A stretch of 64,000 bases of DNA from Halobacillus sp. Marseille-P3879 (lineage in GTDB: Bacteria; Bacillota; Bacilli; Bacillales; Halobacillaceae): NCBI RefSeq assembly GCF_900240285.1, contig NZ_OESS01000001.1, positions 62,001 through 126,000 of the forward strand, given 5' to 3'. The notes beneath the pieces were generated by a model that made no database searches, was not told where the DNA came from, and worked only from the letters and a program-made list of their open reading frames with translations. Made by a program: the position numbers and the translations under genes. Each line of letters opens with the position of its first letter. Position 1 is the stretch's first letter. Shown here piece after piece: positions 2,005 through 62,704 of the stretch.

Positions 2005-3048
2005 ATGGAAGTAATTCACTATAACTATAAAAAGAGAGAAACGTATGAGGTCCATATCGAGCATTCGATTTTATTTGAATGTGCACTCGGAATAGCCGCA
2101 TTTACCAACCAGTCCCTGATCAATACGCTGGAGAGAAAGGATTGGAACTTGTCCCGTTTTTCTGAGTCGCTGCATCACGAATTGGAATACGTGACTATGC
2201 ATAATACGTGGAAAGCCCTTCTCCAGATTTTACATCATGACGCCTTTTCTTCCCTTCACTCCTTTACTGAATTTCTTACCCATGCAGAAAGTGAAAAATT
2301 AAAACACCTCTGCCTGCCTTATGCAGGAGAAGCGCTGGAACAACTGCGAATAGAAGCTTCACGAGGACGCTTGGACGCCGTTCAGTCGTTTGCCGAAGAA
2401 GTAAATGACCACCCTTTTTTCCCTGCTTACGTTACATTTATCAGCGAAATCGATACAGAGAAGTTAAAACAGCATTTAATACGTGTTATGGAATTGTGGT
2501 TTGAAGCCGTCGTCCAGCCTGAAGAAGAGAAGCTGCGGGAATTGTTGCGATACGACCATGAAGCGAAAGAGAAAATGAAGCAGAAATTAGAGCCGGAAGC
2601 TTTTGTTGAATGGGCGACCGGCGGCCTTACCTATCGTCCAGAACCAAGTGTATATCAAGTTCTGCTGATCCCGCATTATACGTATAGACCGTGGAATGTA
2701 GAAGCCGACCTTAAAGGAACAAAGGTTTTCTATTACCCTGTGTCCAATGACAGCTTATACAAGGAGGACCCTTATATCCCCGGCCAGATGCTCGTTCAGC
2801 AGTATAAAGCATTAGGAGATGAAGTGCGCTTAAAGCTGGTCAAGTATTTATATGAGCGGGAACGATCGCTACAGGAACTGACGAACATATTACAAATGCG
2901 AAAATCGACCCTTCATCATCATTTAAAAATGTTAAAAGCGGCCCGCATGGTCGAATCAAATCATTCCACCTACCGTTTGAACCGCCATAAATTGGAGGCG
3001 ATGCCGATTAATCTTGAGCAGTTTCTAGACAAGAAAGATGAACAGTAA
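2005..3048 (+). CDS. ArsR-family winged-helix regulator
   Basis: This 347-residue protein has a long N-terminal effector-like region of unknown fold and a C-terminal ArsR-type winged helix (about residues 262-335). The tail reads YKALGDEVRLKLVKYL, then SLQELTNIL and STLHHHLKML as the recognition helix. No metal-binding ELCVCDL motif is present, so it is not a classic metal sensor. It overlaps the MFS transporter downstream by 11 bases, which suggests it controls that exporter. The start has a clear AAGAGGTGG upstream. It is divergent from splA. The regulated ligand cannot be deduced. Confidence 0.8.
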   Translation: MEVIHYNYKKRETYEVHIEHSILFECALGIAAFTNQSLINTLERKDWNLSRFSESLHHELEYVTMHNTWKALLQILHHDAFSSLHSFTEFLTHAESEKLKHLCLPYAGEALEQLRIEASRGRLDAVQSFAEEVNDHPFFPAYVTFISEIDTEKLKQHLIRVMELWFEAVVQPEEEKLRELLRYDHEAKEKMKQKLEPEAFVEWATGGLTYRPEPSVYQVLLIPHYTYRPWNVEADLKGTKVFYYPVSNDSLYKEDPYIPGQMLVQQYKALGDEVRLKLVKYLYERERSLQELTNILQMRKSTLHHHLKMLKAARMVESNHSTYRLNRHKLEAMPINLEQFLDKKDEQ

Positions 3049-4264
3049 TATGGAAGAGCTGGCTCACGGAGACAGCAGACCGGAATGGAGAAAAAATTAT
3101 CCGGCTTTTCGTTTAATCGGAGGAAATGTAGTCTCTTTTTTTGGTGACCAAATTTATTTACTTGCTTTACCGTTAATCGTACTGGCCCTGACGGATTCCC
3201 CAGTTGCAATGGGGATCGCAGCGTTCTTAGAAAGACTGCCGATTCTTTTGCAGCCGTGGCTTGGGGTTTTAACGGATCGGCTTTCCCGCAAGCGGATTTT
3301 GCTTGCGTGTGATGCGTGCCGTGCTTTCTTAGCAGGCGTAACGGGCGTACTGTTTATAATGGATCAGTTAACTGTCTGGCAGTTATTTTTGACTGCTTTT
3401 CTAATCGGATTGTTTACGCAGCTTTATAATACTGCCCAATTTACCGTCATTCCTTATTTAGTTCGCGAGCATGATCTAAAGAAAGCAAATGCTGTAAACA
3501 GCGGGCTTTTTCAAACAGCTGTCTTACTCGGTCCAGGACTTGGAGGAATGATCGTGAGCATCTATCATCCCGGATACGCCCTCATCATTAATGGGACAAG
3601 TTTTCTGGCAGCATGGCTTGCTATTAGAAGCCTTCCACTGCCCCGGGCAAGTGAGCATACTGCTCAACAGAAGGTATGGAAGCAGGTGGAGGAAGGGTTT
3701 CGATATGTTTTTAAACGAAAGCCGATTCTTTTTACTAACCTTGCGATGATGTTCTCAATTTTTGGTACTACGCTGTTTTTAACGATGATGGTTTTTCATC
3801 TTAAGGATGTTATTGGTTTATCACCAGCTGCGATCGGATGGCTGCTTTCGAGCGGTGGGGCTGCTGCGATTGGCGGGGCATTTCTGTCTCCAGTTTTAAC
3901 AAGCAAGTGGAGCTATAGGCACATTTTGTTTACTGCTTCTATATGTGGCGGTATATCAGTCATCGGTTTTGGCCTCATGGGAGCCTTTACTAGTCTTCTC
4001 ATAATGAATGCGATAGGAACATTTGCCGCTTCGATTCAAAGCCCTTGTATTATAACTATTCGGCAAAAGCTGACACCTAAACGATTACTTGGGAGGGTAC
4101 AGGCAACCAGCCGTTTAATCAGCTGGGTCTCCATGCCCGCAGCAGCCTTACTTGCCGGATTTATTTCCGAATGGTTCAGCACCGACGTAACGATAGTGAT
4201 AGGAGGCGTGATTACGACATTGGCCTCGTTTTTTTACTTACATCCTTCGCTAAAAACTGCTTAA
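3038..4264 (+). CDS. MFS transporter
   Basis: This 408-residue polytopic membrane protein of the major facilitator superfamily (MFS_3/EntS-like drug or siderophore exporters) shows about 12 hydrophobic segments. The loop 2-3 signature appears as GVLTDRLSRKRIL (about residues 79-91), with the conserved acidic/basic residues and Gly. It begins inside the last codons of the ArsR gene, so the two are probably co-translated. A second ATG lies four codons in (3050). Substrate unknown; an efflux role under control of the upstream regulator is inference. Confidence 0.85.
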   Translation: MNSNMEELAHGDSRPEWRKNYPAFRLIGGNVVSFFGDQIYLLALPLIVLALTDSPVAMGIAAFLERLPILLQPWLGVLTDRLSRKRILLACDACRAFLAGVTGVLFIMDQLTVWQLFLTAFLIGLFTQLYNTAQFTVIPYLVREHDLKKANAVNSGLFQTAVLLGPGLGGMIVSIYHPGYALIINGTSFLAAWLAIRSLPLPRASEHTAQQKVWKQVEEGFRYVFKRKPILFTNLAMMFSIFGTTLFLTMMVFHLKDVIGLSPAAIGWLLSSGGAAAIGGAFLSPVLTSKWSYRHILFTASICGGISVIGFGLMGAFTSLLIMNAIGTFAASIQSPCIITIRQKLTPKRLLGRVQATSRLISWVSMPAAALLAGFISEWFSTDVTIVIGGVITTLASFFYLHPSLKTA

Positions 4265-4377
4265 GAAATGTGGCAGAAATGTGGGATTTAAGAAAAAGAT
4301 CTTCAAAAGAAGGAATCTCCCTGTTTTAATGGAAATGAAGAGTAGGAGAAGATTTTTTCATAAGGAGAAAAACTTAT

Positions 4378-4815
4378 ATGAATATCACACACGCTACAAG
4401 AGAAGAGATTAACGAAATTATGCCTTATTTAGGAGAATCTCTTGAAGAAGGTTCCCGTGGCTACTACAAAATTGATCAGGATCAAGCAGCAAAAATGGTT
4501 CAGGACGTCTTAAGCGAAGATGGTCAAATACAAGTAGCTAAAGAAGATAACCAGGTAGTAGGCTGGGTCCTCTATGGCCATCAAAAGGACAGCTTTACTG
4601 GAGAGCTTATTGGCTTTATTTATGATTTGTTCGTTCTGCCGGATTACAGGTCTAGAGGGTTTGCCAAAAGCATGATGGAAAATGCAATGACGGAATTAAA
4701 ATTACAAGGGATGACATCCGTAAGGCTTGTGGTTTACGCCGGAAATGAAGCAAAGAAGCTGTATGAAAAGCTGGGCTTTGCTGAAAACCGCACGATTATG
4801 AATAAACCACTTTAA
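4378..4815 (+). CDS. GNAT-family N-acetyltransferase
   Basis: This 145-residue protein has the Gcn5-related acetyltransferase fold: a central strand ending in FVLPDYRSRGFA, where the R-x-x-G-x-A loop (about residues 98-103) binds acetyl-CoA pyrophosphate, and a late VRLVVYAGNEAKKLYEKLGF motif. The start has AAGGAG upstream. It is followed after three bases by a small exported protein. The acceptor substrate is unknown. Confidence 0.88.
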   Translation: MNITHATREEINEIMPYLGESLEEGSRGYYKIDQDQAAKMVQDVLSEDGQIQVAKEDNQVVGWVLYGHQKDSFTGELIGFIYDLFVLPDYRSRGFAKSMMENAMTELKLQGMTSVRLVVYAGNEAKKLYEKLGFAENRTIMNKPL

Positions 4816-4827
4816 GAGGTGTTCGGT

Positions 4828-5244
4828 TTGAGAAAGGCAGCCTTTTGTTGTATTCTTGCTTTTATTTTACAGGGAGGGGCAGTCTCAGCGGTAAGCTGGG
4901 CTTACCCTTTTGTAGTTTGGAATGGCGGCGTCTATCAAGTTACGGAGGAAACGGTAGAGGAAGTCGGCAAAGTCATTGGAGAAGTGGAAACAAAGCCGGA
5001 TGAAGAAGGGAATTATCGAGGCAATGCCTCCAATGCGTATGAAATTGGGACAAAATATTACTCGATTTCTGACTCGGATCCAAAAGAAGAGATAGCTGTG
5101 GAGGATGGGAATCAATATGTGAAGGCCGTTTATGAAAATAAAGCCCCGAAATCAGCTTCTTTTTATATCTATACGTTTTTCCTTAGTATTGCAGTAATTG
5201 TGAGTGCTGTGCTTATCTACTTGCGTTTTCAAAAAAACTATTAA
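4828..5244 (+). CDS. Small exported membrane-anchored protein
   Basis: No family recognised. The protein has an N-terminal hydrophobic signal segment (about residues 1-22), an extracytoplasmic acidic region (pI visibly low) and a C-terminal transmembrane helix (about 112-130, FYIYTFFLSIAVIVSAVLIY) with a short basic tail. The TTG at 4828 was chosen because AAGAGGTG lies 6 bases upstream; the in-frame GTG at 4819 is part of that ribosome-binding site. The stop is 1 base before the first parS site. Confidence 0.7.
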   Translation: MRKAAFCCILAFILQGGAVSAVSWAYPFVVWNGGVYQVTEETVEEVGKVIGEVETKPDEEGNYRGNASNAYEIGTKYYSISDSDPKEEIAVEDGNQYVKAVYENKAPKSASFYIYTFFLSIAVIVSAVLIYLRFQKNY

Positions 5245-5245
5245 A

Positions 5246-5261
5246 TGTTTCACGTGAAACA
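5246..5261. promoter_or_regulatory. parS: parS site 1
   Basis: Perfect 16-bp palindrome TGTTTCACGTGAAACA, the Spo0J/ParB loading site. It lies between the small exported protein and the VOC gene, 1.9 kb upstream of noc. An ATG overlaps it and would open a longer frame into the VOC gene, but that is coincidental. Confidence 0.97.
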
Positions 5262-5283
5262 TTATTTTAAGGAGGCACTTTAT

Positions 5284-5634
5284 TTGAATCCCATTTCAAA
5301 ACAAGTCGGAGCTATTTTTATTCCTGTTAAAGACATTGAAAAAGCTCGTGATTGGTATTGTGACTTGCTTGGAGAAGCAGCGGAAGGAGAGATTCCGTTC
5401 GGCCATCTTTATATTCTGCCGATGGAAAGTCCAAGAATTGTACTTGATAGTAAAATATACGCTGCCGATGCTGTTTATAAAGTGCCGTCTTTTCATTTTA
5501 ATACGAAGAATATTCAAGCTGCCTATCAATTTATGAAATCGAAAAACGTCGAGCTTATGACGGAAATTCAACATGGTCACTGGTTTACCTTTAAAGATCC
5601 TGATGGAAATCTGCTGATGGTCGCGGAGTGTTAA
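5284..5634 (+). CDS. VOC (glyoxalase/bleomycin-resistance) family protein
   Basis: This is a single vicinal-oxygen-chelate module of 117 residues: VGAIFIPVKDIEKARDWY at the start and WFTFKDPDGNLLMVAEC at the end. The end carries the typical DPDGN turn and the E metal-ligand position. The TTG at 5284 is preceded by AAGGAGG at 8 bases; the longer frame from 5245 would be encoded by parS and is rejected. It is followed after 3 bases by a GyrI-like gene, so the two are co-transcribed. Its substrate is unknown. Confidence 0.8.
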   Translation: MNPISKQVGAIFIPVKDIEKARDWYCDLLGEAAEGEIPFGHLYILPMESPRIVLDSKIYAADAVYKVPSFHFNTKNIQAAYQFMKSKNVELMTEIQHGHWFTFKDPDGNLLMVAEC

Positions 5635-5637
5635 AAA

Positions 5638-6138
5638 ATGTCGATCCTATATGAGCCGATTGTGAAAAATGTCGGCGAAATAAAGATTGTCGGATTCAGA
5701 GTGTATTGTGAAGACGGGGATAGATACATAGACGAAATTCCGAAAGCATCCCTCGCCTTAGATAAAAGAAAACAGGAAATTTGTCATCTAATTCACCCCG
5801 TTTATCAAATCGGGGTTTTTATTATTGAAACGGCATATATCGAAGAAGAAGGATATTGGGTCGGATTCGCCGTTCATCAATTTGTTGAGGTTCCTAATGA
5901 TATGTCGGCGCTTACGATCCCTCCTCAAACTTATGCGGCTCTAACGGTGAAAGGGTCTAATGACCAAATCCGTCCTGCTTATCAAAAGCTTCAGCAATGG
6001 ATGGAACAAAACAATTATCCCCGTCTTTTACACAAATGGCATGTTGAAAAATATACAAAATGGGGAAGGAAAGAGAATATAGAAGTGGAATTACTGGATA
6101 CCACGGAACTGAATGAGGGCTTTCATTCAAATTACTAA
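5638..6138 (+). CDS. GyrI-like small-molecule-binding domain protein
   Basis: This 166-residue protein resembles the effector-binding (GyrI/SbmC, AraC_E_bind) fold. It opens with a strand that in this family begins EPxIVxxxxxxVxGF, has FAVHQFVEVPNDMSALTIPPQTYAAL in the middle (the typical IP.G.YA segment before the second repeat), and lacks a DNA-binding domain. Stand-alone members bind hydrophobic cations or protect gyrase; neither role can be assigned from sequence. It is spaced 3 bases from the VOC gene. Confidence 0.65.
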   Translation: MSILYEPIVKNVGEIKIVGFRVYCEDGDRYIDEIPKASLALDKRKQEICHLIHPVYQIGVFIIETAYIEEEGYWVGFAVHQFVEVPNDMSALTIPPQTYAALTVKGSNDQIRPAYQKLQQWMEQNNYPRLLHKWHVEKYTKWGRKENIEVELLDTTELNEGFHSNY

Positions 6139-6156
6139 GGTAGAGGAGGGAAAAAC

Positions 6157-6417
6157 GTGGATTTATTTATTTATGCTGTACTCATTCTCATGCTTCTCCT
6201 CTTCGTTGGACGGGGAACTTCCATGGAAAAAAGGGTAAAAAGACTTGAAGAGACACTTCGCCGTGTAACAGAGCAAGTGGATCTTCCTCCTTCATCTACT
6301 GATGAGGAATTAAAACAGCTTGTACGTGAAGGCAAGGATGTGCAAGCGGTTAAACGAGCACGAAAAGAACTTGGCTTATCTCTGATAGAAGCTAAGGAAT
6401 ATATCGATAAGTTATAA
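6157..6417 (+). CDS. Membrane-anchored L7/L12 C-terminal-like domain protein
   Basis: An 86-residue protein with one N-terminal transmembrane helix (residues 3-18), a short coiled-coil (about 23-40) and a C-terminal segment (50-86) that resembles half of the ribosomal L7/L12 C-terminal domain: GKDVQAVKRARKELGLSLIEAKEYIDKL. It cannot replace the ribosomal protein, because the dimerisation domain is missing. The GTG start follows AGAGGAGGG at 7 bases. Function unknown. Confidence 0.72.
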   Translation: MDLFIYAVLILMLLLFVGRGTSMEKRVKRLEETLRRVTEQVDLPPSSTDEELKQLVREGKDVQAVKRARKELGLSLIEAKEYIDKL

Positions 6418-6542
6418 ATGAGCAACGAAACCTTTGATCGTTCTTCTACGTATGTAGTTTGAAACAGCTCTTTTTTAATTTGTAAGCATACTTACTAGAT
6501 TAAGGTGACGCTATATAAATTCAATCATTAGGAGTGGGTGTT

Positions 6543-6830
6543 ATGGATGTTTTATTAGCTTTGGGAATTGCAGCAGCAGGCTATTTCATAGGCGATGGAT
6601 TAAAAAATTTCAAAAATCCTTCCGCTCCGGATGTTTTAAGCAGTCTTAATGACGATGATGATCCTCAATTAGTGAAAGAAAAGGATGTGCATATTTATTT
6701 AGGCATGTCTAAAGAGGATGGCAGGCAGCTTCTCCAAGAATACCCCGATATTCCCCACGTCACGATTAACCAAAATATTTATTATCCAAAAGAGCAGCTG
6801 AAGGCATGGGTGAAGAAAATAGGAAATTAA
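6543..6830 (+). CDS. Small membrane-anchored protein with HTH-like tail
   Basis: Not assigned to a family with certainty. The 95-residue protein has an N-terminal hydrophobic helix (about residues 1-17), an acidic linker with DDDD (about 36-40), and a C-terminal part (about 49-95) patterned like a small winged or excisionase-type helix-turn-helix (YLGMSKEDGRQLLQEYPD ... YYPKEQLKAWVKK). The ATG at 6543 has GGAG 8 bases upstream; the GTG at 6534 overlaps that site. Confidence 0.6.
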   Translation: MDVLLALGIAAAGYFIGDGLKNFKNPSAPDVLSSLNDDDDPQLVKEKDVHIYLGMSKEDGRQLLQEYPDIPHVTINQNIYYPKEQLKAWVKKIGN

Positions 6831-50440: not shown

Positions 50441-50920
50441 ATGAAAATAACCATCGTAACCGTCGGAAAACTAAAAGAAAAATACTTAAAACAAGGCATT
50501 GACGAATACATCAAACGCCTCACCCCTTATGCGAAAGTCGATATCGTTGAAGTCCCCGACGAAAAAGCACCCGAGAACTTAAGTGAAGCGCAAATGCTTG
50601 AAGTCAAGCAGAAGGAAGGGGAGCGGATTCTATCAAAAATCCAGCAGGATACATACGTGATTACGCTTGAAATCGAAGGCAAGCAGCTGACTTCTGAAAA
50701 ACTCGCCAAGCAGCTTGATGACCTGGCGACGTATGGGAAGAGTAAGGTGGCGTTTGTGATTGGCGGATCACTTGGCTTGAGTGACGAGGTGCTGAAGCGG
50801 AGTGATTATGGGATGTCATTCTCGAAGATGACGTTTCCTCATCAGTTGATGCGGTTGATGTTGGTGGAGCAGGTGTATCGGGCATTTAAGATTATTAGGG
50901 GGGAACCTTATCATAAGTAA
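50441..50920 (+). CDS. rlmH: 23S rRNA (pseudouridine1915-N3) methyltransferase RlmH
   Basis: A SPOUT methyltransferase of 159 residues that methylates pseudouridine 1915 of 23S rRNA. It opens [16 protein letters not shown] and has the knot-forming [39 protein letters not shown] and the final RGEPYHK. The ATG at 50441 follows CGGGAGG and gives the family start. Its last 18 bases resemble the SCC attachment core (see findings). The foreign island starts immediately after it. Confidence 0.97.
50903..50920 (+). other. Candidate attachment site at the rlmH 3' end
   Basis: GAACCTTATCATAAGTAA matches the staphylococcal SCC attB core (GAAGCATATCATAAATGA) at 14 of 18 positions and contains the palindrome CTTATCATAAG. 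Much of the match follows from the shared protein end (EPYHK/EAYHK), so integration here is inference. Confidence 0.35.
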
Positions 50921-53363: not shown

Positions 53364-53609
53364 GTGGAAGTTAAACTGTTTCAAAGAACACAAAGGGATT
53401 TAGCGGCGTCTATTAATCTAGTAATCGATAAATACTGGGAAGATTCTATTAGTGAAGAAGACATGGTTAAGTTGATTAATAAATTGTACATAAATAATGA
53501 AGAGAAATTTAAGAGAAATGGAAATTACACAACAGTACTTCGTCAACAGTGTGGGAAAAGAAGGTTATCTGTTGTCAGTAAAGTCCTTCAACCAAAAGAA
53601 GTATCGTAA
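53364..53609 (+). CDS. TIGR04540-like small protein
   Basis: An 81-residue, helical, charged protein resembling the TIGR04540 family: INLVIDKYWEDSISEEDMVKLINKLYINNEEKFKRNGNYTTVLRQQCGKRRLSVVSKVL, with its WED.ISEE, NG.YTTV and GKRR elements. The GTG start follows AGTAGGTGA. It lies 30 bases before the helicase gene in the same direction and is probably the first gene of the defence operon. Its function is unknown; a regulatory or DNA-binding role is possible. Confidence 0.65.
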   Translation: MEVKLFQRTQRDLAASINLVIDKYWEDSISEEDMVKLINKLYINNEEKFKRNGNYTTVLRQQCGKRRLSVVSKVLQPKEVS

Positions 53610-53639
53610 GGGAAACTAATGGCTTAGGAGTTGTAGAAA

Positions 53640-56600
53640 ATGCAAAAAGTATTAGACAACAAAAGCTTGGGATTGATAGGGGATACGTTAAAAGAAGATA
53701 TTCGTTCAAATTCTAAATTAACTATTATGTCAGCGTACTTCTCCATCTATGCATTTCAAGAGCTAAAAAAGCAATTGTTAAAAGTAGATAGTGTGAAATT
53801 GTTATTTACCGAACCTACTTTTACAAATACAAACGAGAAATCAGAAATGCAAATGTTTAGAGAAAAGGGTATTGCAGGATTTGAAGATGAAGCCAAGTTT
53901 AGAAATCAGCTCAACCAACATAAAATTGCAAAAGAATGCGCAGAATGGTTGAGAGATAAAGTCGAAGTCAAATCAATGAAACACAGTTCTCCAATGAGTA
54001 TGATAAACATTTTAAACCCAAGACATAATGACGTGAATTTATTCGGAAGTACTCATTTTACAAGTGGTTACTTAGGTTTCACATATTCTAACGTACCTAC
54101 TGCCGCCAATTACACAAATGATAATGTAGCGACCGAACAGTACGTTAACTTATTTGAATCTCACTGGAGTGATCCGGTGCATTTAGAAGAGGTGAAAGAA
54201 AGCCTATTAGAACACCTAGAAGTATTACATAAAGATCATTCTCCAGAATTCATATACTTTGTAACGCTATATCATATATTCAAAGATTATTTAGACGAGC
54301 TTGATGAAGAGGCGATTGTTAAGTCGAAAACGGGCTTCCAGGATACGTCAATATGGAACAAACTTTATAAATTTCAGCGTGATGGCGTACTTGGAGCTAT
54401 CGATAAATTAGAAAAATATAATGGTTGCATCATTGCAGATAGTGTTGGACTTGGGAAAACCTTTGAAGCACTAGCTGTCATCAAATATTACGAACTAAGA
54501 AATGATAGAGTGCTCGTCCTAAGCCCGAAGAAATTACGGGAAAACTGGACAATTTATACACAAAACGATAAAAGAAATCTATTGGCTGATGATCGTTTCA
54601 ATTATGATGTATTGAATCATACCGATCTAAGTAGGTATCAAGGGATGTCTGCGGATATCAATTTGGAAACGGTGAATTGGAGCAATTATGATTTGATTGT
54701 TATAGATGAATCTCATAACTTCCGTAATAATGAAGCACGGAAAGACAGAGAAACAAGATATCAACGTCTGATGAATAAAGTTATTAAATCAGGGGTTAAA
54801 ACAAAGGTTTTAATGCTTTCAGCTACCCCCTTGAATAATCGAATGAATGATCTGAAAAACCAAATGGCATTTATCACTGAAGGTAAGGATGATGCTTTGG
54901 AGAATGCAGGTATTAGTAGTGTTGAATCATCATTGAGAAAAGCACAAGTGGCTTTTAATAAGTGGCTTAAGTTAGGTGATGAGGAACGAAATACCGATAA
55001 ACTATTGGAGATGTTAAATACAGACTATTTTAAGCTATTAGATTCTCTAACAATTGCAAGATCTAGAAAGCATTTAGAAAAATATTATGACCTTAAAAAG
55101 ATTGGGAAGTTTCCGAAACGGCTAAAACCGATAAACATTTATCCCCCAATCGATAATAAAAATGAATTTCCATCGATGGAGCAAGTGAATAAAATTATTA
55201 ACCGATTGAATCTCAGTGCATATGCACCATTAAGGTACTTACTGCCAGAAAAAAGAGCTGAGTATAGCAAGAAATATGACACTGTGGTTAAAGGTTCTAC
55301 CATATTAACTCAAGCAGATAGAGAAAACAGTCTTATTCATTTAATGAGAGTTAATTTACTTAAAAGAATGGAAAGTTCAATTCATTCTTTTGGTTTAACG
55401 GTTTCTAAGTTATTGCAATCAATTGATAACTTATTAGATAAACTTGAGCATTACAAAGACTATTCTGCTCAATCAATGTCTATTTCTGATATTGATTTAG
55501 AAGATGATGCATTTGAAGATATGTTGATTGGCGCTAAAGTAAAAGTTCTTATCCAAGACTTAGATCGTATCAAGTGGAAACAAGCTCTAGAAGATGACAA
55601 AGAGAATCTTGAAGAAATTTTAAGAGAGGCATTTAAGGTTCAACCTGATCGGGATGAAAAGCTACAAAAGTTGAAAACACTCATTCAAGATAAAGTAAAC
55701 AATCCTATAAATAATAACAATAAGAAAGTTATAGTATTTACAGCATTTGCAGATACCGCTAAATATCTATATGACAATATTGCGGATTGGTCAAATTCGA
55801 ACCTTGATGTCCACTCAGCTATTGTTACAGGATCTGGGCAAAATAAGTCGAATATGAAAGGTGTGAGAGCGAAAGACATAAATGGTGTCTTAACGCATTT
55901 TTCACCTAACTCAAAAAATAGAGATACCTTATATCCAGATATGAAAGATGAGATTGATATTCTTATTGCTACTGACTGCATCTCAGAAGGGCAAAACCTT
56001 CAGGATTGTGATTACTTAATAAACTATGATATTCACTGGAACCCTGTACGAATTGTTCAACGATTCGGACGTATCGATCGTTTAGGTTCAACTAATGAGC
56101 AAATACAGTTGGTTAATTTCTGGCCAAATATAGAATTGGACGAGTACATTAATCTGGAAGCTCGTGTCACTGGTAGAATGGCCCTGATGGATGTTTCTGC
56201 TACGGGAGAAGAGAATGTAATTGAAGGTAAAAGCGATAATATGAATGATTTAGAATATCGTCGTAAACAATTATTTCAATTACAGGATGAGGTTATTGAT
56301 TTAGAAGAAATGTCTGGTGGTTTATCTATAACAGATTTAACTCTAAACGACTTTAAAATGGATTTAGTTTCATATATGGAAGAGAATAAGGAACTGATAG
56401 AACAAACACCAGCAGGACTACACGCATTAGCTAAGATTAATTCAAATGAGATTGATGGTATAGATCCAGGAATCATATTCTGTTTACGTCAAATTAAAGG
56501 CGAAAAGGATATTAAAGAACAAAGTGCTTTGGAACCATATTTTTTAGTCTACATTACAGAGGATCGAAGGATTGAGTTTAGTCATGTGAAAAGCAAGCAA

Positions 56601-56864
56601 ATCCTTGATTTATACAGGCATTTGTCGTTAGGAAAAAACCATGTTTACGACAATCTAGTTGATGTATTTAAAGATGAAACAGATGATTATGAAGATATGG
56701 AAAAGTATCAAGCCATGTTAACAAGTGCTATTAATTTTATTGTTGGTAAAAATGAAGAAATGGGAATGGCTTCATTATTTAGTATTGGAGAATCTAGCTT
56801 GTCCAATGATTCTTTTCAAGAAGCGGACGATTTTGAGCTCATAACGTATCTCGTAGTTAAGTAG
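53640..56864 (+). CDS. PLD-like/SNF2-type helicase
   Basis: A 1074-residue superfamily 2 helicase. Residues 1-170 form a PLD-like domain: SAYFSIYAFQEL, LFTEPTF, and GSTHFTSGYLG (136-146), which matches the GS.NFT.GL segment of PLD nucleases. The usual H-x-K is not seen (MSMINIL lies where HAKxxIL would), so the PLD part may be inactive. The motor has Walker A DSVGLGKT (267-274), DESH (356-359) and SATP (394-397). Its second half has IATDCISEGQNLQDCD and QRFGRIDRLGS. It heads a block of four genes: DUF4391 starts 8 bases later, then Mod and Res. It probably translocates on DNA in the restriction reaction. Confidence 0.9.
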   Translation: MQKVLDNKSLGLIGDTLKEDIRSNSKLTIMSAYFSIYAFQELKKQLLKVDSVKLLFTEPTFTNTNEKSEMQMFREKGIAGFEDEAKFRNQLNQHKIAKECAEWLRDKVEVKSMKHSSPMSMINILNPRHNDVNLFGSTHFTSGYLGFTYSNVPTAANYTNDNVATEQYVNLFESHWSDPVHLEEVKESLLEHLEVLHKDHSPEFIYFVTLYHIFKDYLDELDEEAIVKSKTGFQDTSIWNKLYKFQRDGVLGAIDKLEKYNGCIIADSVGLGKTFEALAVIKYYELRNDRVLVLSPKKLRENWTIYTQNDKRNLLADDRFNYDVLNHTDLSRYQGMSADINLETVNWSNYDLIVIDESHNFRNNEARKDRETRYQRLMNKVIKSGVKTKVLMLSATPLNNRMNDLKNQMAFITEGKDDALENAGISSVESSLRKAQVAFNKWLKLGDEERNTDKLLEMLNTDYFKLLDSLTIARSRKHLEKYYDLKKIGKFPKRLKPINIYPPIDNKNEFPSMEQVNKIINRLNLSAYAPLRYLLPEKRAEYSKKYDTVVKGSTILTQADRENSLIHLMRVNLLKRMESSIHSFGLTVSKLLQSIDNLLDKLEHYKDYSAQSMSISDIDLEDDAFEDMLIGAKVKVLIQDLDRIKWKQALEDDKENLEEILREAFKVQPDRDEKLQKLKTLIQDKVNNPINNNNKKVIVFTAFADTAKYLYDNIADWSNSNLDVHSAIVTGSGQNKSNMKGVRAKDINGVLTHFSPNSKNRDTLYPDMKDEIDILIATDCISEGQNLQDCDYLINYDIHWNPVRIVQRFGRIDRLGSTNEQIQLVNFWPNIELDEYINLEARVTGRMALMDVSATGEENVIEGKSDNMNDLEYRRKQLFQLQDEVIDLEEMSGGLSITDLTLNDFKMDLVSYMEENKELIEQTPAGLHALAKINSNEIDGIDPGIIFCLRQIKGEKDIKEQSALEPYFLVYITEDRRIEFSHVKSKQILDLYRHLSLGKNHVYDNLVDVFKDETDDYEDMEKYQAMLTSAINFIVGKNEEMGMASLFSIGESSLSNDSFQEADDFELITYLVVK

Positions 56865-56872
56865 GTGAGAAA

Positions 56873-57637
56873 ATGAGAAAGGAATTGATTGCAAAACTGC
56901 AAATGCCTAAAAGGACTGTGTTGAACCGAAACATTCCAAAGAAACAGTTTTACGAACAGGCTGAATTATCCAATCAAGAGAAAGAGCTTATAAAAGATGA
57001 TATAGAAAGCATTTACTTACTATCAATTTGTCGTCAGGATACATTAAATGTACCTAAATATGTGGAGGAAGATCTACATTACGAGGAGATTTATTGGGTA
57101 TTTGTATCACTTAAATCAACGAAACGCTTTGAAAAAGTTTGTAAGGCGATACATCGAGCATTTCCAAACCCAGTGGTTCTGGTTTGTTCTAATGCAGGAC
57201 AAGAAATTGCGGTAAGTACTGGACATAAACGATTGAATCAAAACGTTTCTAGTAAGTCTGTGGTAGAAGAATTAAACTTATCACCTTTTATTGATCCATA
57301 TAGTCATGATGAAGGAGTAGTCAGGTTTATTGAAAGGTTGAGTTTTCCATCTCTTTCTCATCAAAATTTGTATCTATTCTATGATGATTTGTCAAAAGCG
57401 ACTGAGGCTAGTCAAATTATAAGTCTCATAGGAAGTTACCCTAGCAAAGAACTAAGTCTTCTTGATTCCACAAGGGTTATTAAAGAGATTAATTTAAATG
57501 CAGAAGAATTGTTACGTTTGAAAAAAGAACATGATGACCAAACAGATTTTGGTGAAAAAATGAACACTCATATAAAAGTTAAACAAGAAGAAACAAAAAA
57601 AGAAAAACTGATTAACCAGTTGAAGGAGTTGTGTTAA
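56873..57637 (+). CDS. DUF4391 protein
   Basis: A 254-residue DUF4391-type protein, a family found beside type III Mod/Res and helicase genes. It has FYEQAELSNQEKELIKDDIESIYLLSICRQDTLNVPKY, EIYWVFVSLKS, and a helical C-terminal part rich in Lys/Glu (about 205-250). The ATG follows TAGGTGAGA. It ends at the base before the mod start, so the two are coupled. No catalytic motif is visible; a specificity or bridging role in the restriction complex is inference. Confidence 0.8.
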   Translation: MRKELIAKLQMPKRTVLNRNIPKKQFYEQAELSNQEKELIKDDIESIYLLSICRQDTLNVPKYVEEDLHYEEIYWVFVSLKSTKRFEKVCKAIHRAFPNPVVLVCSNAGQEIAVSTGHKRLNQNVSSKSVVEELNLSPFIDPYSHDEGVVRFIERLSFPSLSHQNLYLFYDDLSKATEASQIISLIGSYPSKELSLLDSTRVIKEINLNAEELLRLKKEHDDQTDFGEKMNTHIKVKQEETKKEKLINQLKELC

Positions 57638-59473
57638 GTGGAAAAACTAGATGGAAAAACATTTAATGTTATTAACGACAATATTGAAAAATTAAAAGAG
57701 ATATTTCCAGAGGTTATAACCGAGGAGAAAATTGATTTTGAAAAACTTCAACAAGCATTAGGCGAAAACATAGAAAAATCTAAGGAACGCTATGACTTTA
57801 CATGGAACGGAAAATCTGAGGCGATCAACATGGCCCAAAAACAAACAACTGGGACATTAAGGCCCTGTAAAGAAGAAAGTGTCAATTGGGACACAACTCA
57901 AAACCTGTACATTGAAGGGGATAATCTTGAGGTATTAAGGGTACTCCAAAATTCTTATAGAAATAAAGTGAAAATGATTTACATTGACCCACCTTATAAT
58001 ACTGGAAATGATTTTATTTACGAAGACGATTTTAAAAATAATGTAAAAAATTACTTGGAAATGAATTTTGAAAATCTAAAATCAAATGCTGAAACTAGTG
58101 GGCGTTATCATACAGATTGGTTGAACTTAATGTATCCTAGACTAAAAATTGCTAGGAACTTATTAAAAGATGATGGGGTCATATTTATGTCTATTGATGA
58201 TGTAGAGGTAAATAATCTAAAAAAGATTTCCGATGAAATTTTTGGTGAGTCAAATTTCATATCTATAATTACAAGAGAGGCTATAAAAGGTGGATCCCAA
58301 TCCAGACATATTCGTGTAACACATGATTATATTTTAATATATTGTAAAGATATTAACTCTGTTAATTTAACAGGCATAGAGACTGAGGGAATTAAATTAA
58401 ACCTTGAAGATGAAAAGGGTAAATATGCTAAAGGAAGAGAATTGAATAAATGGGGAGCTGGTTCTCGAAGAGAAGATTCTCCTAGTATGTGGTTTCCAAT
58501 ACCTGGCCCAAATGGTGAAGAGGTTTATCCTATTAGAAATGATGGATCAGAAGGAAGATGGCGGTTAGGAAAAGCAAAAATGCAAAAGTTAGTAGAGGAA
58601 AATGATGTTTTATTTGAAAAAAGAGATAATGGTACGTATATCGCTTATCAAAAGATTCGTGATGATTCTCCAAAAATAAAACAATTTACTACGCTATTTA
58701 CTGATAAGTATATAAACGCTAGAGGTACTGAAGAGATAAAGTCCTTATTTGAAGTGGAACGAACATTATTTGATTATGCGAAACCAGTTGAATTAATAGA
58801 AGATCTTATAACAATGTCGAACTTGAACGAACACGATATTGTACTCGATTTTTTTTCAGGGTCTGCAACCACAGCACAAGCATGTATGAAAAAAAGTTTG
58901 GAGGATAATAAAGCTATTAAATATATCCTAGTTCAACTTGATGAGTCAACAGGAGAAAATTCAGAAGCAAGAAAATTAGGGTATAGCTTAATACCCGAAG
59001 TCGCAAAGGATCGAATTAGAAAATCCGGGAATAAATTACTTTCTAGTGTGTCTGGAAACGATAATAAATTGGATATCGGGTTTAAAGTGTTTAAATTAGA
59101 TGAAACAAATTTACATACATGGGACTCGGAGAAGGACAATTTAGAACAAAATCTCATTGAGCTAGTCGAGTCCTTAAAAGATGGTAGAACTCAAGAAGAT
59201 GTTGTATATGAGGTTCTACTTAAATTTGGTGTAGATTTAACTGTTCCAATTAATGAGAAGGAAATTGCAGATAAGACAGTATATGATGTTGGAATGGGAT
59301 ACTTGTTCATTTGCTTAGAGAAAAACTTAGAATTATACGTAATTGAAGAAATAGCGAAAGTAAAACCTACTCGAGTGGTTTTTTATGATGAAAGTTTTAA
59401 AGATGATACTGTACGAACTAACGCCCAACAAATATTAAAACGTTATGGTGTAGAGGATGTTCGTGTTATTTAA
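57638..59473 (+). CDS. mod: Type III restriction-modification Mod (N6-adenine methyltransferase)
   Basis: A 611-residue DNA adenine methyltransferase and specificity subunit. The beta-class order is seen: DPPY motif IV at 117-120 (MIYIDPPYNTG), then a variable target-recognition region (about 210-390), then motif I (VLDFFSGSATTAQA, about 402-413). The GTG start comes right after the DUF4391 stop. No simple repeats that would give phase variation are seen. It should recognise and methylate one strand of an asymmetric site; the site cannot be predicted. Confidence 0.95.
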   Translation: MEKLDGKTFNVINDNIEKLKEIFPEVITEEKIDFEKLQQALGENIEKSKERYDFTWNGKSEAINMAQKQTTGTLRPCKEESVNWDTTQNLYIEGDNLEVLRVLQNSYRNKVKMIYIDPPYNTGNDFIYEDDFKNNVKNYLEMNFENLKSNAETSGRYHTDWLNLMYPRLKIARNLLKDDGVIFMSIDDVEVNNLKKISDEIFGESNFISIITREAIKGGSQSRHIRVTHDYILIYCKDINSVNLTGIETEGIKLNLEDEKGKYAKGRELNKWGAGSRREDSPSMWFPIPGPNGEEVYPIRNDGSEGRWRLGKAKMQKLVEENDVLFEKRDNGTYIAYQKIRDDSPKIKQFTTLFTDKYINARGTEEIKSLFEVERTLFDYAKPVELIEDLITMSNLNEHDIVLDFFSGSATTAQACMKKSLEDNKAIKYILVQLDESTGENSEARKLGYSLIPEVAKDRIRKSGNKLLSSVSGNDNKLDIGFKVFKLDETNLHTWDSEKDNLEQNLIELVESLKDGRTQEDVVYEVLLKFGVDLTVPINEKEIADKTVYDVGMGYLFICLEKNLELYVIEEIAKVKPTRVVFYDESFKDDTVRTNAQQILKRYGVEDVRVI

Positions 59474-59491
59474 AAGGAAGGAGGCGTAATT

Positions 59492-62476
59492 TTGAAAATT
59501 AAGTTTGATGAACAACAATATCAATTAGATGCAATTAATTCCACTGTAAATATATTCGAAGGACAACCTGTTAAAGTATCTAATTTCTCAGTAAGCGCTG
59601 AAGAATTTTTAGGTCAAGAACAGACTGAATTAGGTATTGGAAATAAACTTGAGTTATCTGATATAGATCTATTGGAGAATGTTCAAGCTATACAAAAAAG
59701 AAATCGTCTGACAAAAAGTCAAGATTTACAAGATCGTAACTTCACGGTCGAAATGGAAACAGGAACTGGTAAGACATATGTTTATACAAGGTCTGTTTTT
59801 GAATTAAACCAAAGATATGGTTTTTCGAAATTTGTTATTGTTGTGCCAAGTGTAGCAATACGTGAAGGTGTTTATAAGTCATTTCAAATGACAGAGTCAC
59901 ACTTCAAAGAATTATATCCTAGTCAGCACTGCAATTATTTTATTTATGATTCTTCAAAGTTAGAAAAAGTTCGTGAGTTTGCAACTAGTAGTAATATCGA
60001 GGTTATGATTATTAATATTGATGCCTTCAAAAAGAGTTTTGAAGACCCTGAAAAAGAAGACAAGGCTAACCTAATTCACCGCGAACGAGATACGATGAAT
60101 GGGAAAAAACCAATAGAATTTATACAGGAAACGAATCCAATTGTTATTATTGACGAGCCTCAAAGTGTCGACAACACTGATAAAGCAAAAGAAGCAATTG
60201 CATCTTTAAACCCTTTATGTAAATTACGTTATTCAGCAACACACAGGGATACTTATAATTTGATGTATAAATTAGATCCTGTGGCAGCATATGAAGAACG
60301 GCTCGTGAAGAAAATTGAAGTATTGTCTGTGAAACCTGAAGATGACTTTAATGATCCTTACATTAAGTTAAAGAATGTTTCGAATAAGAACGGCTATCAA
60401 GCCACGTTAGAAATGGATGTTCAACAGAAAAACGGTGTAGTTAAACGTAAAAACATCAAGGTTGATCCGAACAAGCGTAGCGATTTGTATGTCTTATCAG
60501 GAGAGAGAGACATATATCAAGGTTATTATGTTGAAGGAATAGATTGTTTACCTGGAAATGAATCTATTGAATTTGAAGGGAAACAACCTCTATACCTTGG
60601 AGAAGCCATCGGAGAAATGAATGATGCAGTATTAAAACGTTATCAAATTCGAGAAACAATTCGCGCTCACTTAGATAAAGAACTTCAATTGATGCACAAA
60701 GGCATTAAAGTATTAAGTTTATTCTTTATTGATAAAGTAGCCAACTATCGAATTTATAATGATGATGGTACTTGGAGTCACGGATCGTATGCGGAGGTTT
60801 TTGAAGAAGAATATCTAAATATGATCAAAAACCAGAAATATCAAACGTTATTTAAAGAAGACAGCCCTATTGCAAATTTTAACGTTTCAGAAGTACATGG
60901 TGGTTATTTCTCACAAGACAAAAAAGGTCGCTTTAAAGATAGTAATCTTAAAAAAGATGGAACACTGCGTTCGAATAAAGACGATGAATCGTTCTTTGAG
61001 TTAATCATGAAGAAGAAAGAAGAGCTTTTAAGCTTCGATACACCATTGAGATTTATTTTCTCTCACTCTGCTTTGAAAGAAGGTTGGGACAATCCTAATG
61101 TCTTTCAAATTTGTACACTAGTTGAAACCAAAGATACGTTAACGAAGCGTCAGAAAATTGGTCGAGGTCTGAGGTTACCTGTTAAGGATGACGGTCGTCG
61201 TCATTTTGATGAAAATGATAACGTTCTGACTGTAGTAGCGAATGAATCGTACGAAGAGTTTGCTGATTCACTACAAAAAGAAATGGAATCAGAAACGGGT
61301 GTGCGATTTGGATTTATCGAGAAACATACATTTGCACCGATCACTTATACGAATGAAGACAATGAAAAAGAGGCCCTTGGTTCAGATGAGTCCGAGAAAA
61401 TTTATAATTATTTTGTTGCTCAGAACTATATAGATAGGAAAGGTAAAATCAAAGATTCACTCAAGCAAGATTTAGCTCAAGGAGTTATGGAAATACCAGA
61501 GGAATACAGTGTAGTTAAGAAAGATATTGAAGAAACCTTAAAGAGAGCTATCAAGAAGCTACCAGTATTTAATTATGATGATAAAGTTAAAGTCCAACCT
61601 GATAAGCAAGTTTTACTTAGTGATGATTTTAAGCAATTATGGAATCGCATTAAGCATAAAACCACTTATTCTGTTGACATTGACACCGAAACACTGATTA
61701 AGAAGAGTGTGGAGGAAATTCAAAGACTCCCAAGATTTCGAGCGCGTAAAATAAGGCGTGAAACAGCTAACTTAGACATTACTGAAGCTGGTGTTAAAGG
61801 TGAAGGCGGGGGAGTAAGATTCTATGAAGCTGAAGAAGAAACCAGACAACTACCAGACATCTTAAGGTACTTACAAGATCAAACGAATTTAAAGCGCCGT
61901 ACAATAGTCGATATACTCATTAAGTCTAAACGCTTGGATGATTTTAAGAAAAACCCACAATCATTCATGGAAGAAGTCATGAAAATTATTAATAAAGAAA
62001 AACGTAAATTAATCATTGATGGCATCAAGTATGAAAAGATCGGAGACCATGAATACTTTGAGCAATCATTGTTTGAGAGTGAAGAATTGATTGGTTATTT
62101 GAAGAAAAATGCAATTGAAGTGGGTGAACACAAATCTGTTTATGATCACATTGTGTATGACTCAAATATAGAAAAAGAGTTTGCTGAGCGGTTAAATAGT
62201 GATCCGGATGTTAAGCTCTTTGTTAAATTACCTAGCTTCTTTGTGATAGACACCCCTCTTGGCAACTATAACCCTGATTGGGCTGTTTTAATAGAAAGCG
62301 ATGGTATAGAGCAGCTATACTTTGTGGTTGAAACTAAAGGAAGTACTGACCAAGAAGACCTGAGGATAGCCGAAAACGGTAAAATTATCTGTGGTCGTAA
62401 ACATTTTGAAGCACTCGAAGATGGTGTCGAGTATAAACTAGCTAGTACTTATGAAGAGTTAAAACAAGAAGTATAG
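59492..62476 (+). CDS. res: Type III restriction enzyme Res subunit
   Basis: A 994-residue superfamily 2 ATPase-nuclease that works with Mod. It has Walker A GTGKT (91-95), DEPQ (221-224) as motif II, SATHRDT, HSALKEGWDNPNVFQI, and RQKIGRGLRLPV as motif VI. Its C-terminal PD-(D/E)xK nuclease has P928-D929 (NPDWAVL) and E947-x-K949 (VVETKGS). The TTG start follows AAGGAGG. It is 18 bases after mod and ends the operon. All motor and nuclease residues are present, so it looks functional. Confidence 0.95.
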   Translation: MKIKFDEQQYQLDAINSTVNIFEGQPVKVSNFSVSAEEFLGQEQTELGIGNKLELSDIDLLENVQAIQKRNRLTKSQDLQDRNFTVEMETGTGKTYVYTRSVFELNQRYGFSKFVIVVPSVAIREGVYKSFQMTESHFKELYPSQHCNYFIYDSSKLEKVREFATSSNIEVMIINIDAFKKSFEDPEKEDKANLIHRERDTMNGKKPIEFIQETNPIVIIDEPQSVDNTDKAKEAIASLNPLCKLRYSATHRDTYNLMYKLDPVAAYEERLVKKIEVLSVKPEDDFNDPYIKLKNVSNKNGYQATLEMDVQQKNGVVKRKNIKVDPNKRSDLYVLSGERDIYQGYYVEGIDCLPGNESIEFEGKQPLYLGEAIGEMNDAVLKRYQIRETIRAHLDKELQLMHKGIKVLSLFFIDKVANYRIYNDDGTWSHGSYAEVFEEEYLNMIKNQKYQTLFKEDSPIANFNVSEVHGGYFSQDKKGRFKDSNLKKDGTLRSNKDDESFFELIMKKKEELLSFDTPLRFIFSHSALKEGWDNPNVFQICTLVETKDTLTKRQKIGRGLRLPVKDDGRRHFDENDNVLTVVANESYEEFADSLQKEMESETGVRFGFIEKHTFAPITYTNEDNEKEALGSDESEKIYNYFVAQNYIDRKGKIKDSLKQDLAQGVMEIPEEYSVVKKDIEETLKRAIKKLPVFNYDDKVKVQPDKQVLLSDDFKQLWNRIKHKTTYSVDIDTETLIKKSVEEIQRLPRFRARKIRRETANLDITEAGVKGEGGGVRFYEAEEETRQLPDILRYLQDQTNLKRRTIVDILIKSKRLDDFKKNPQSFMEEVMKIINKEKRKLIIDGIKYEKIGDHEYFEQSLFESEELIGYLKKNAIEVGEHKSVYDHIVYDSNIEKEFAERLNSDPDVKLFVKLPSFFVIDTPLGNYNPDWAVLIESDGIEQLYFVVETKGSTDQEDLRIAENGKIICGRKHFEALEDGVEYKLASTYEELKQEV

Positions 62477-62486
62477 TCACCTAGAT

Positions 62487-62524
62487 AAACCCCCCTATAT
62501 CATTTGAAATGAATAGGGGGTTTT
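62487..62524 (+). terminator. Terminator of the restriction operon
   Basis: AAACCCCCCTAT (62487-62498) pairs with ATAGGGGGTTTT (62513-62524), 14-nt loop, then A/T-rich sequence. The gap to 62704 is AT-rich and should hold the promoter of the OLD gene. Confidence 0.88.
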
Positions 62525-62704
62525 AAAAAATTCTTCACGAGCTTGAATACTACAAATAATTTCCATAAGTTACTTAGCTCACAACTTTTATAAAGATGTT
62601 TCTTGTTTAGTTCCAATTTAAAAGAGTTTTAATTTCTTGGTAAATATTCATTTGTTTCTACCCCTTTAGTCAAATTTCTTGGATTGAATAGAAGGAGAGT
62701 TGTT

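Follow-up and report, generated by a model that had tools for sequence, protein, structure and literature searches.

What do a SNF2-type helicase and a protein of the DUF4391 family do in an operon ending in mod and res, given that type III restriction enzymes have been studied as Mod plus Res? This question is raised by a locus of Halobacillus sp. Marseille-P3879 (contig NZ_OESS01000001.1), which we analyzed within a stretch of 64,000 nucleotides, called the window as a whole (positions 62,001 to 126,000 of the contig). The operon itself occupies positions 53364-62476 of the window. An earlier note, made from the sequence alone, had proposed that the helicase and DUF4391 are part of one enzyme with Mod and Res. 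Judged by gene content and order across genomes, the set of helicase, DUF4391, mod and res is real, conserved and widespread, and the four proteins very probably form a functional unit. We propose, with somewhat less than even confidence, that the operon represents a four-protein subclass of type III systems in which a RapA-like translocase and a fast-evolving adaptor help Mod and Res.

Layout, linkage and co-diversification of the four-gene set

The five genes of the operon are co-directional, with intergenic gaps of 30, 8, 0 and 18 bases. The coordinates of the open reading frames (ORFs) on the + strand bear out this layout, which the earlier note had described, and profile matches uphold the family names given there. 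A small first gene of the TIGR04540 family (53364-53609, 81 aa) precedes the gene of the SNF2-type motor, or helicase (53640-56864, 1074 aa). The DUF4391 gene (56873-57637, 254 aa) is followed by mod, encoding a type III DNA methyltransferase with a DPPY motif (57638-59473, 611 aa), and by res, encoding a type III restriction subunit with a Walker A motif, a DEAD-like motor and a PD..ETK motif (59492-62476, 994 aa). The terminator noted after res corresponds to a hairpin at 62486-62525 on the + strand (-17.6 kcal/mol, z -3.25), a probable terminator that 0 of 200 shuffles equalled. It was absent from the output of a simple terminator scan, probably because its T run is short.

Mod matched the type III methyltransferase model PDLC03634 (675.4 bits) and N6_N4_Mtase (118.7 bits). 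Similarly, Res matched the type III restriction enzyme model PDLC03647 (1056.3 bits), RE_endonuc (128.3 bits) and the restriction subunit of EcoP15I (PDB 4zcf, 206.4 bits). By their motifs, the two are predicted to be a type III pair, a DPPY methyltransferase beside a Res with ATPase and PD-(D/E)XK motifs. Type III cleavage involves two inversely oriented sites and occurs about 25-27 bp away. In the extended loci, those with all four genes, the DPP motif was present in 81/81 Mod rows, and the Res rows showed a loose nuclease pattern in 79/81 and a Walker A pattern in 75/81 cases. Mod has a variable part at about residues 226-376, which is probably responsible for target recognition.

Relatives of the helicase were collected by scanning one genome per species, which gave at least 587, and the best 80 of these were taken as loci. 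DUF4391 was present in 72 of the 73 loci with at least 900 bases downstream, and DUF4391, Mod and Res were present together in 58 of the 59 loci with at least 7.5 kb downstream. The sole exception, L126, has mod in pieces, and no res was found in it. In a phylum survey of 398 genomes including the window's own, DUF4391 occurred in 34 genomes, Res (threshold of at least 285 bits) in 52 and both in 33 (Fisher p 1.3e-33). The co-occurrence check suggested in the earlier note, whether helicase and DUF4391 accompany Mod/Res above chance, was thus strongly passed. Counted by place, 29 of 36 DUF4391 occurrences in this survey (excluding the second piece of a split match in G219) had a Res within 15 kb on the same contig, one more (G194:C1) had a Res by local profile, and the other 6 lay on contigs ending inside the operon. 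Conversely, DUF4391 was found within 15 kb of 29 of the 58 Res places. Twenty of the remaining 29 were inspected: 10 were mod/res genes with upstream room but without a full helicase/DUF4391 pair of this family, and 10 were cut by contig ends.

The set was found in Bacillota, Pseudomonadota, Thermodesulfobacteriota, Myxococcota, Bacteroidota, Chlorobiota, Planctomycetota, Verrucomicrobiota, Lentisphaerota, Chloroflexota and Nitrospinota, as well as in two archaea, a Methanobrevibacter and, on a plasmid, a Methanomethylovorans. The gene order was conserved on plasmids of Bacillota, Pseudomonadota, Thermodesulfobacteriota and one archaeon, with Res broken in Desulforapulum and Acetobacter plasmids and Mod broken in a Latilactobacillus plasmid. 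It was also kept on one Escherichia coli plasmid (pLAO18, L186) and two E. coli chromosomes. A tblastn search with the helicase matched 107 of 72,556 plasmid records at E 1e-50, 98 of them spanning at least 80% of the query. At the DNA level, the version on pLAO18 matched 68 of 5,426 complete E. coli genomes, 10 over at least 80% of the query. Furthermore, four genes of an Erysipelothrix phage follow this order; the second, a candidate DUF4391 gene, is annotated otherwise.

Defence islands cluster unrelated systems, and a Gabija system adjoins the operon, which could mean that helicase and DUF4391 form a defence pair of their own, placed beside type III genes by chance. This explanation is nearly refuted by the occurrence of the set in 58/59 loci, in the same gene order and across phyla, and by the agreement between pairwise identities. 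For the latter, we used the 77 non-redundant loci among 89 with all four genes intact and 500 permutations. The correlation (rho) was 0.89 for helicase-Res, 0.80 for Mod-Res, 0.78 for helicase-Mod, 0.74 for DUF4391-Res, 0.69 for helicase-DUF4391 and 0.62 for DUF4391-Mod, far above the permutation maximum of 0.17 for any protein pair. A chance neighbourhood was rejected on the basis of linkage, co-diversification and the Fisher test. As far as sequences can tell, the correlated identities show that the four genes travel and diversify as one unit, which does not imply contact between the proteins.

The same correlations bear on the possibility that the pair of helicase and DUF4391 aids modification, for instance by delivering Mod to freshly replicated, hemimethylated sites. 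Type III sites are indeed methylated on one strand, according to excerpts of Murray et al. 2021 (PMC8259958), and helicase and Mod are correlated. However, the helicase tracks Res better than it tracks Mod. Its correlation with the Mod core (Mod minus the variable part) was 0.83, with a partial value of only 0.25 given Res, and the partial helicase-Res correlation given the Mod core was 0.62 (partial Mod-Res, 0.51). We consider a role in modification quite improbable and retain the view that the pair helps Mod and Res as a whole.

In a Res tree of 93 rows, 81 of them from extended loci (midpoint root), P1 Res and L105 formed a separate long branch, and the other 10 pair-less Res rows were interspersed among the extended ones. 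Some had neighbours on short branches (L187/L188, L088/L039 and L099/L043, the first of each being pair-less), others stood on longer branches (L087, L101 and the pair L103/L104), and L090, L091 and L100 formed one group. The simple reading of this tree would be a repeated loss of the helicase-DUF4391 pair, gain also being possible; L088 retains a helicase remnant before mod. Mod and Res without the pair thus occur, but among the 59 long loci only L126 was without part of Mod/Res, which suggests that the pair works for Mod/Res rather than the other way round. Four pair-less loci (L099, L101, L103 and L104) encode a short Res of 761-808 aa adjoining a full-length Mod; the loose nuclease pattern is missing in three of them, and the match in L101 lies in a different sequence context.

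The motor and its DUF4391 partner

The motor matched SNF2 and Helicase_C in Pfam and, over residues 13-1073, the PADLOC 'HKD+Snf2' model PDLC01075 (457.8 bits). Motifs I, II and VI (Walker A, DExH and motif VI patterns) were present in 123/123 sequences and SATP in 119/123. Its best solved-structure matches by profile were RapA and eukaryotic SNF2 remodellers, and RapA was also top-ranked by Foldseek with the motor model (mean pLDDT 78.7).

Residues 1-230 (53640-54329, + strand) have a PLD/HKD-like layout without the catalytic HxK(x)4D motif, the catalytic histidine and lysine being substituted in the window protein. The aligned HxK was kept in 2/123 sequences and the full motif in 0/123; a plain text search for HxK gave 7/123, of which, by eye, only L039 and L135 have it at the aligned site. 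Furthermore, this region is fast-evolving, with a median identity of 0.28 versus 0.56 for the motor part. Because the window protein and all aligned relatives but two have lost the catalytic residues, a nuclease role of the PLD domain was rejected, and the protein appears to combine a motor with an inactive nuclease domain and not to be a nuclease effector. What stands of the initial proposal is that helicase and DUF4391 belong with Mod/Res, as linkage and co-diversification indicate; the PLD-like part as a nuclease effector arm is not supported. As for L039 and L135, they are possibly near the ancestral form.

The DUF4391 protein matched its Pfam profile with 154.5 bits. An alignment of 70 sequences contained no invariant column, and only P12, K23, E72, P98 and Y170 reached at least 90%. 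Its median identity was 0.22, versus 0.47 for the helicase. The predicted structure (pLDDT 95.8, pTM 0.89) consists of an alpha/beta part and a C-terminal helical hairpin at about residues 191-254. Foldseek gave no match to this model in the PDB at E 0.001 or better, and the best match of the profile to PDB sequences had an E of only 0.077. VIA-align rows mainly span residues 191-254 and barely cover the alpha/beta part, and we do not claim a novel fold. A contig scan of genomes with the DUF4391 protein as sole query found no relative, probably because this protein diverges fast. Such rapid divergence, with no catalytic residues conserved, is more in keeping with an adaptor or sensor than with an enzyme. 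In the Listeria plasmid locus L188 (8301-8858), a short and diverged DUF4391 (185 aa, 33.4 bits) stands at the expected place.

A fast-evolving adaptor and N-terminal part are also what one would expect of a sensor, and the pair could thus act as a gate or licence, scanning DNA and turning Res on for non-self DNA only. A comparable gating function has been ascribed to the two helicases of DISARM, DISARM DrmD models were the best PADLOC matches of the motor after HKD+Snf2, and the helicase is coupled to Res. However, no DISARM partner was found among the six proteins scanned, and the retention of Mod/Res without the pair suggests that ungated Mod/Res is neither lethal nor useless. We regard a gating role as rather unlikely and prefer that of a translocase and adaptor assisting Mod/Res.

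Proposed function, cargo genes and genomic neighbourhood

In the reading we prefer, the DUF4391 adaptor would dock on the motor, perhaps on its C-terminal part, and join it to Res. This part of the motor indeed tracks DUF4391 at 0.75, versus 0.50 for the N-terminal part. Like other proteins of the RapA/SNF2 kind, the motor would travel on double-stranded DNA and displace bound protein. To meet a partner at an inverted site, type III complexes move along DNA by diffusion (excerpts of PMC8259958). The motor may clear roadblocks such as RNA polymerase, repressors or phage proteins, which would otherwise halt the sliding complexes before the two-site meeting. Mod and Res alone would keep a basal activity, and the pair would be useless without them. 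Genes lying in the slots between the core genes could be swappable defence genes, acting as a backup if the core is blocked.

Several observations weigh against this proposal. Roadblock clearing as the motor's job draws on the analogy with RapA and on our general picture of type III sliding, and we put it forward only tentatively, with more doubt than conviction. The TM-scores to RapA in the Foldseek search were low, and MDA5 and RIG-I ranked high too. The docking step is weakly based, since the partial helicase-DUF4391 correlation given Res was only 0.08 and the C-terminal part of the motor tracks Res (0.84) closer than DUF4391. Furthermore, the identity correlations also mirror the shared descent of one operon, species kinship not being removed, and the linkage sample consists of the best-scoring loci. 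Loci that have lost or lack the pair still carry full-length Mod and Res (L088 beside L039, L187 beside L188), which indicates that the pair is not strictly needed. Finally, excerpts of PMC8259958 report that a preparation of Eco86II, a type III system with a companion ATPase, cut DNA partially although peptides of this ATPase were undetected; the ATPase is, however, non-homologous to the window motor.

The slots between the core genes were absent from the earlier note. We defined as cargo the same-strand ORFs of at least 90 aa between core genes and found such ORFs in 50 of 127 DUF4391 loci, a rough share because near copies are included; the other 77, among them the window, had none. By slot, cargo occurred in 6/125 helicase-DUF4391, 25/118 DUF4391-mod and 34/109 mod-res intervals. 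The family scan covered 70 of the 83 ORFs, leaving out 13 that were mostly the shortest, and some ORFs may be spurious. Pfam matches among the 70 were to RhuM (8), GmrSD (6), Schlafen/AlbA (5), Fic (3), YhcG nuclease (3), UvrD (3), AAA_13 (2), SIR2 (2) and HerA-type proteins (2). Individual loci carried a TIR protein (L044), a GajA-like OLD ATPase with UvrD and KilA-N (L058), or an ORF combining SieB with the terminal part of a disrupted DUF4391 (L062), and an Enterobacter plasmid had an ATP-dependent endonuclease gene and a DUF2130 gene in its DUF4391-mod slot.

These ORFs raise the possibility that the pair is a guard module, which would detect when Mod/Res is inhibited and set off a second response, often via cargo, without helping in cutting. 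The matches to GmrSD, Schlafen, SIR2, Fic, RhuM and AAA_13, the Gabija-like genes of L058 and a gene annotated as ATP-dependent endonuclease in L192 would suit such a role. However, most loci have no cargo, and no active nuclease motif was found in the pair. We find a guard function improbable and keep to a pair that directly assists Mod/Res.

The variety of the first gene was likewise not foreseen. In the window, it matched TIGR04540 with 95.5 bits (cut-off 50), and an Enterococcus hirae locus also begins with a TIGR04540 gene. Elsewhere, the first position is taken by unrelated small proteins (Cro-like or MerR-like HTH, WYL, MAD1-like HTH), and in several loci no clear small first gene was seen. 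Because the small gene differs in kind between loci, the first position looks like a swappable slot for a putative regulator.

Downstream of the operon, Gabija begins with gajA at 62684 on the + strand, a neighbouring system outside the operon set that continues beyond the end of the window (64000) and is followed there by gajB. Upstream, the gene at 50441-50920 is presumably rlmH. Its 3' end (50903-50920, + strand) recurs with 3 mismatches in 18 bases 15.9 kb further on, outside the window and just after gajB (L195, about 6846). The operon and Gabija are thus possibly borne by an SCC-like element of about 16 kb bounded by rlmH-end copies. The genome gave no match to the Ccr recombinase profile PF07508 at E 0.001, and an empty rlmH site was not found in the one congener (G001) inspected out of 10. 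This congener has a flanking gene in common with the window genome 12 kb after rlmH (L196) and one rlmH-end site with at most 4 mismatches (+ strand, 15 kb), and the rlmH site may be a hotspot with other content there.

If a large share of type III systems carry the motor-adaptor pair, in vitro work and genome annotation have overlooked half the system, and the meeting of sliding type III complexes on crowded DNA would become open to test. The in-operon slots would be a place to seek second-line defence genes.

Comparison with known systems

In the openly licensed literature, we found no publication on this helicase family, its DUF4391 partner, the dead PLD domain or the cargo slots; one paper, PMC7784981, mentions DUF4391. 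LlaFI, which is mentioned in PMC3658997, PMC2932693 and PMC3874151, may be a member that has already been studied. The operon shares with classical type III systems (EcoP1I, EcoP15I) a Mod and a Res with an SF2 motor and a PD-ExK nuclease. However, the P1 record holds mod and res alone (5.1 kb), without the motor/DUF4391 pair.

The fusion of a PLD-like N terminus to an SNF2 motor is common to the HKD+Snf2 helicases of PDLC01075. According to excerpts of PMC10853773 and PMC12839542, the HKD-SF2 helicases of PbeABCD/CxC and of type-2 BREX-related systems are HKD nuclease effectors. Unlike these effectors, the window family lacks the catalytic residues and is partnered by DUF4391, Mod and Res. 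Furthermore, the BREX-related type 2 markers DUF499 ATPase and DUF3780 were not found by Pfam in the five genes and the part of gajA in the window. With DISARM DrmD, the operon has in common an SNF2 motor beside a DNA methyltransferase, but DrmD models cover only parts of the window motor (168 bits versus a cut-off of 610). DrmA and DrmB (DUF1998) were absent from the six proteins scanned, apart from a partial DrmA match of P0002. RapA, the SNF2 ATPase of RNA polymerase recycling, comes first among solved structures for the motor both by profile and by Foldseek. It is not known as a defence protein, and the sequence likeness to it is confined to the motor parts.

That type III systems can include an extra ATPase is known already. 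Excerpts of Murray et al. 2021 (PMC8259958) describe Eco86II and BspHIV, m4C type III systems with an extra helicase-like ATPase gene 5' of mod. This ATPase is close to Mod/Res in more than 500 genomes, is not needed for methylation and is of unknown role according to the same excerpts. In E. coli NCTC86, covered in two 50-kb stretches plus 2 kb, we found genes for an SNF2 protein (963 aa), Mod (1040 aa) and Res (1126 aa) at 5046030-5055447. From the described layout, we infer that this locus is Eco86II, a name that its record does not carry. The DUF4391 profile had no match in 20 kb around it, blastp with a limit of E 1 did not match the NCTC86 Res to that of the window, and NCTC86 was not seen among the 60 listed of the 68 genomes matched with the L186 helicase DNA. 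In the Eco86II kind, the ATPase gene lies immediately 5' of mod, whereas in the window DUF4391 stands between motor and mod. Moreover, the presumed Eco86II ATPase is not a full-length homologue of the window motor, with 25-29% identity to this family in the motor parts only.

The same NCTC86 protein is, however, 44% identical over its full length to the DrmD-like SNF2 protein before Mod/Res in L090. Five ORFs upstream of L090, where DISARM was looked for, gave no PADLOC match at 1e-20. Between the SNF2 gene and mod, L090 encodes a 1279-aa protein (2903-6742) with no Pfam or PADLOC match at the limits used. In L090, a motor of the NCTC86 kind is thus paired with a Res inside the window Res branch. 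L090 and NCTC86 are a second case of an SNF2 motor, of another kind, accompanying type III enzymes, which speaks for the four-protein reading. Overall, these comparisons leave room for a broader idea, to which we would not yet commit: a whole type III branch, counted as two-gene because annotation models recognize Mod and Res, might be a four-protein machine. In this machine, DUF4391 would link Res to a second motor, a nuclease-dead SNF2 protein; an exchangeable regulator would precede the set, slots within it would accommodate second-line defence genes that act under attack on the core, and SNF2 motors would have joined type III systems at least twice.

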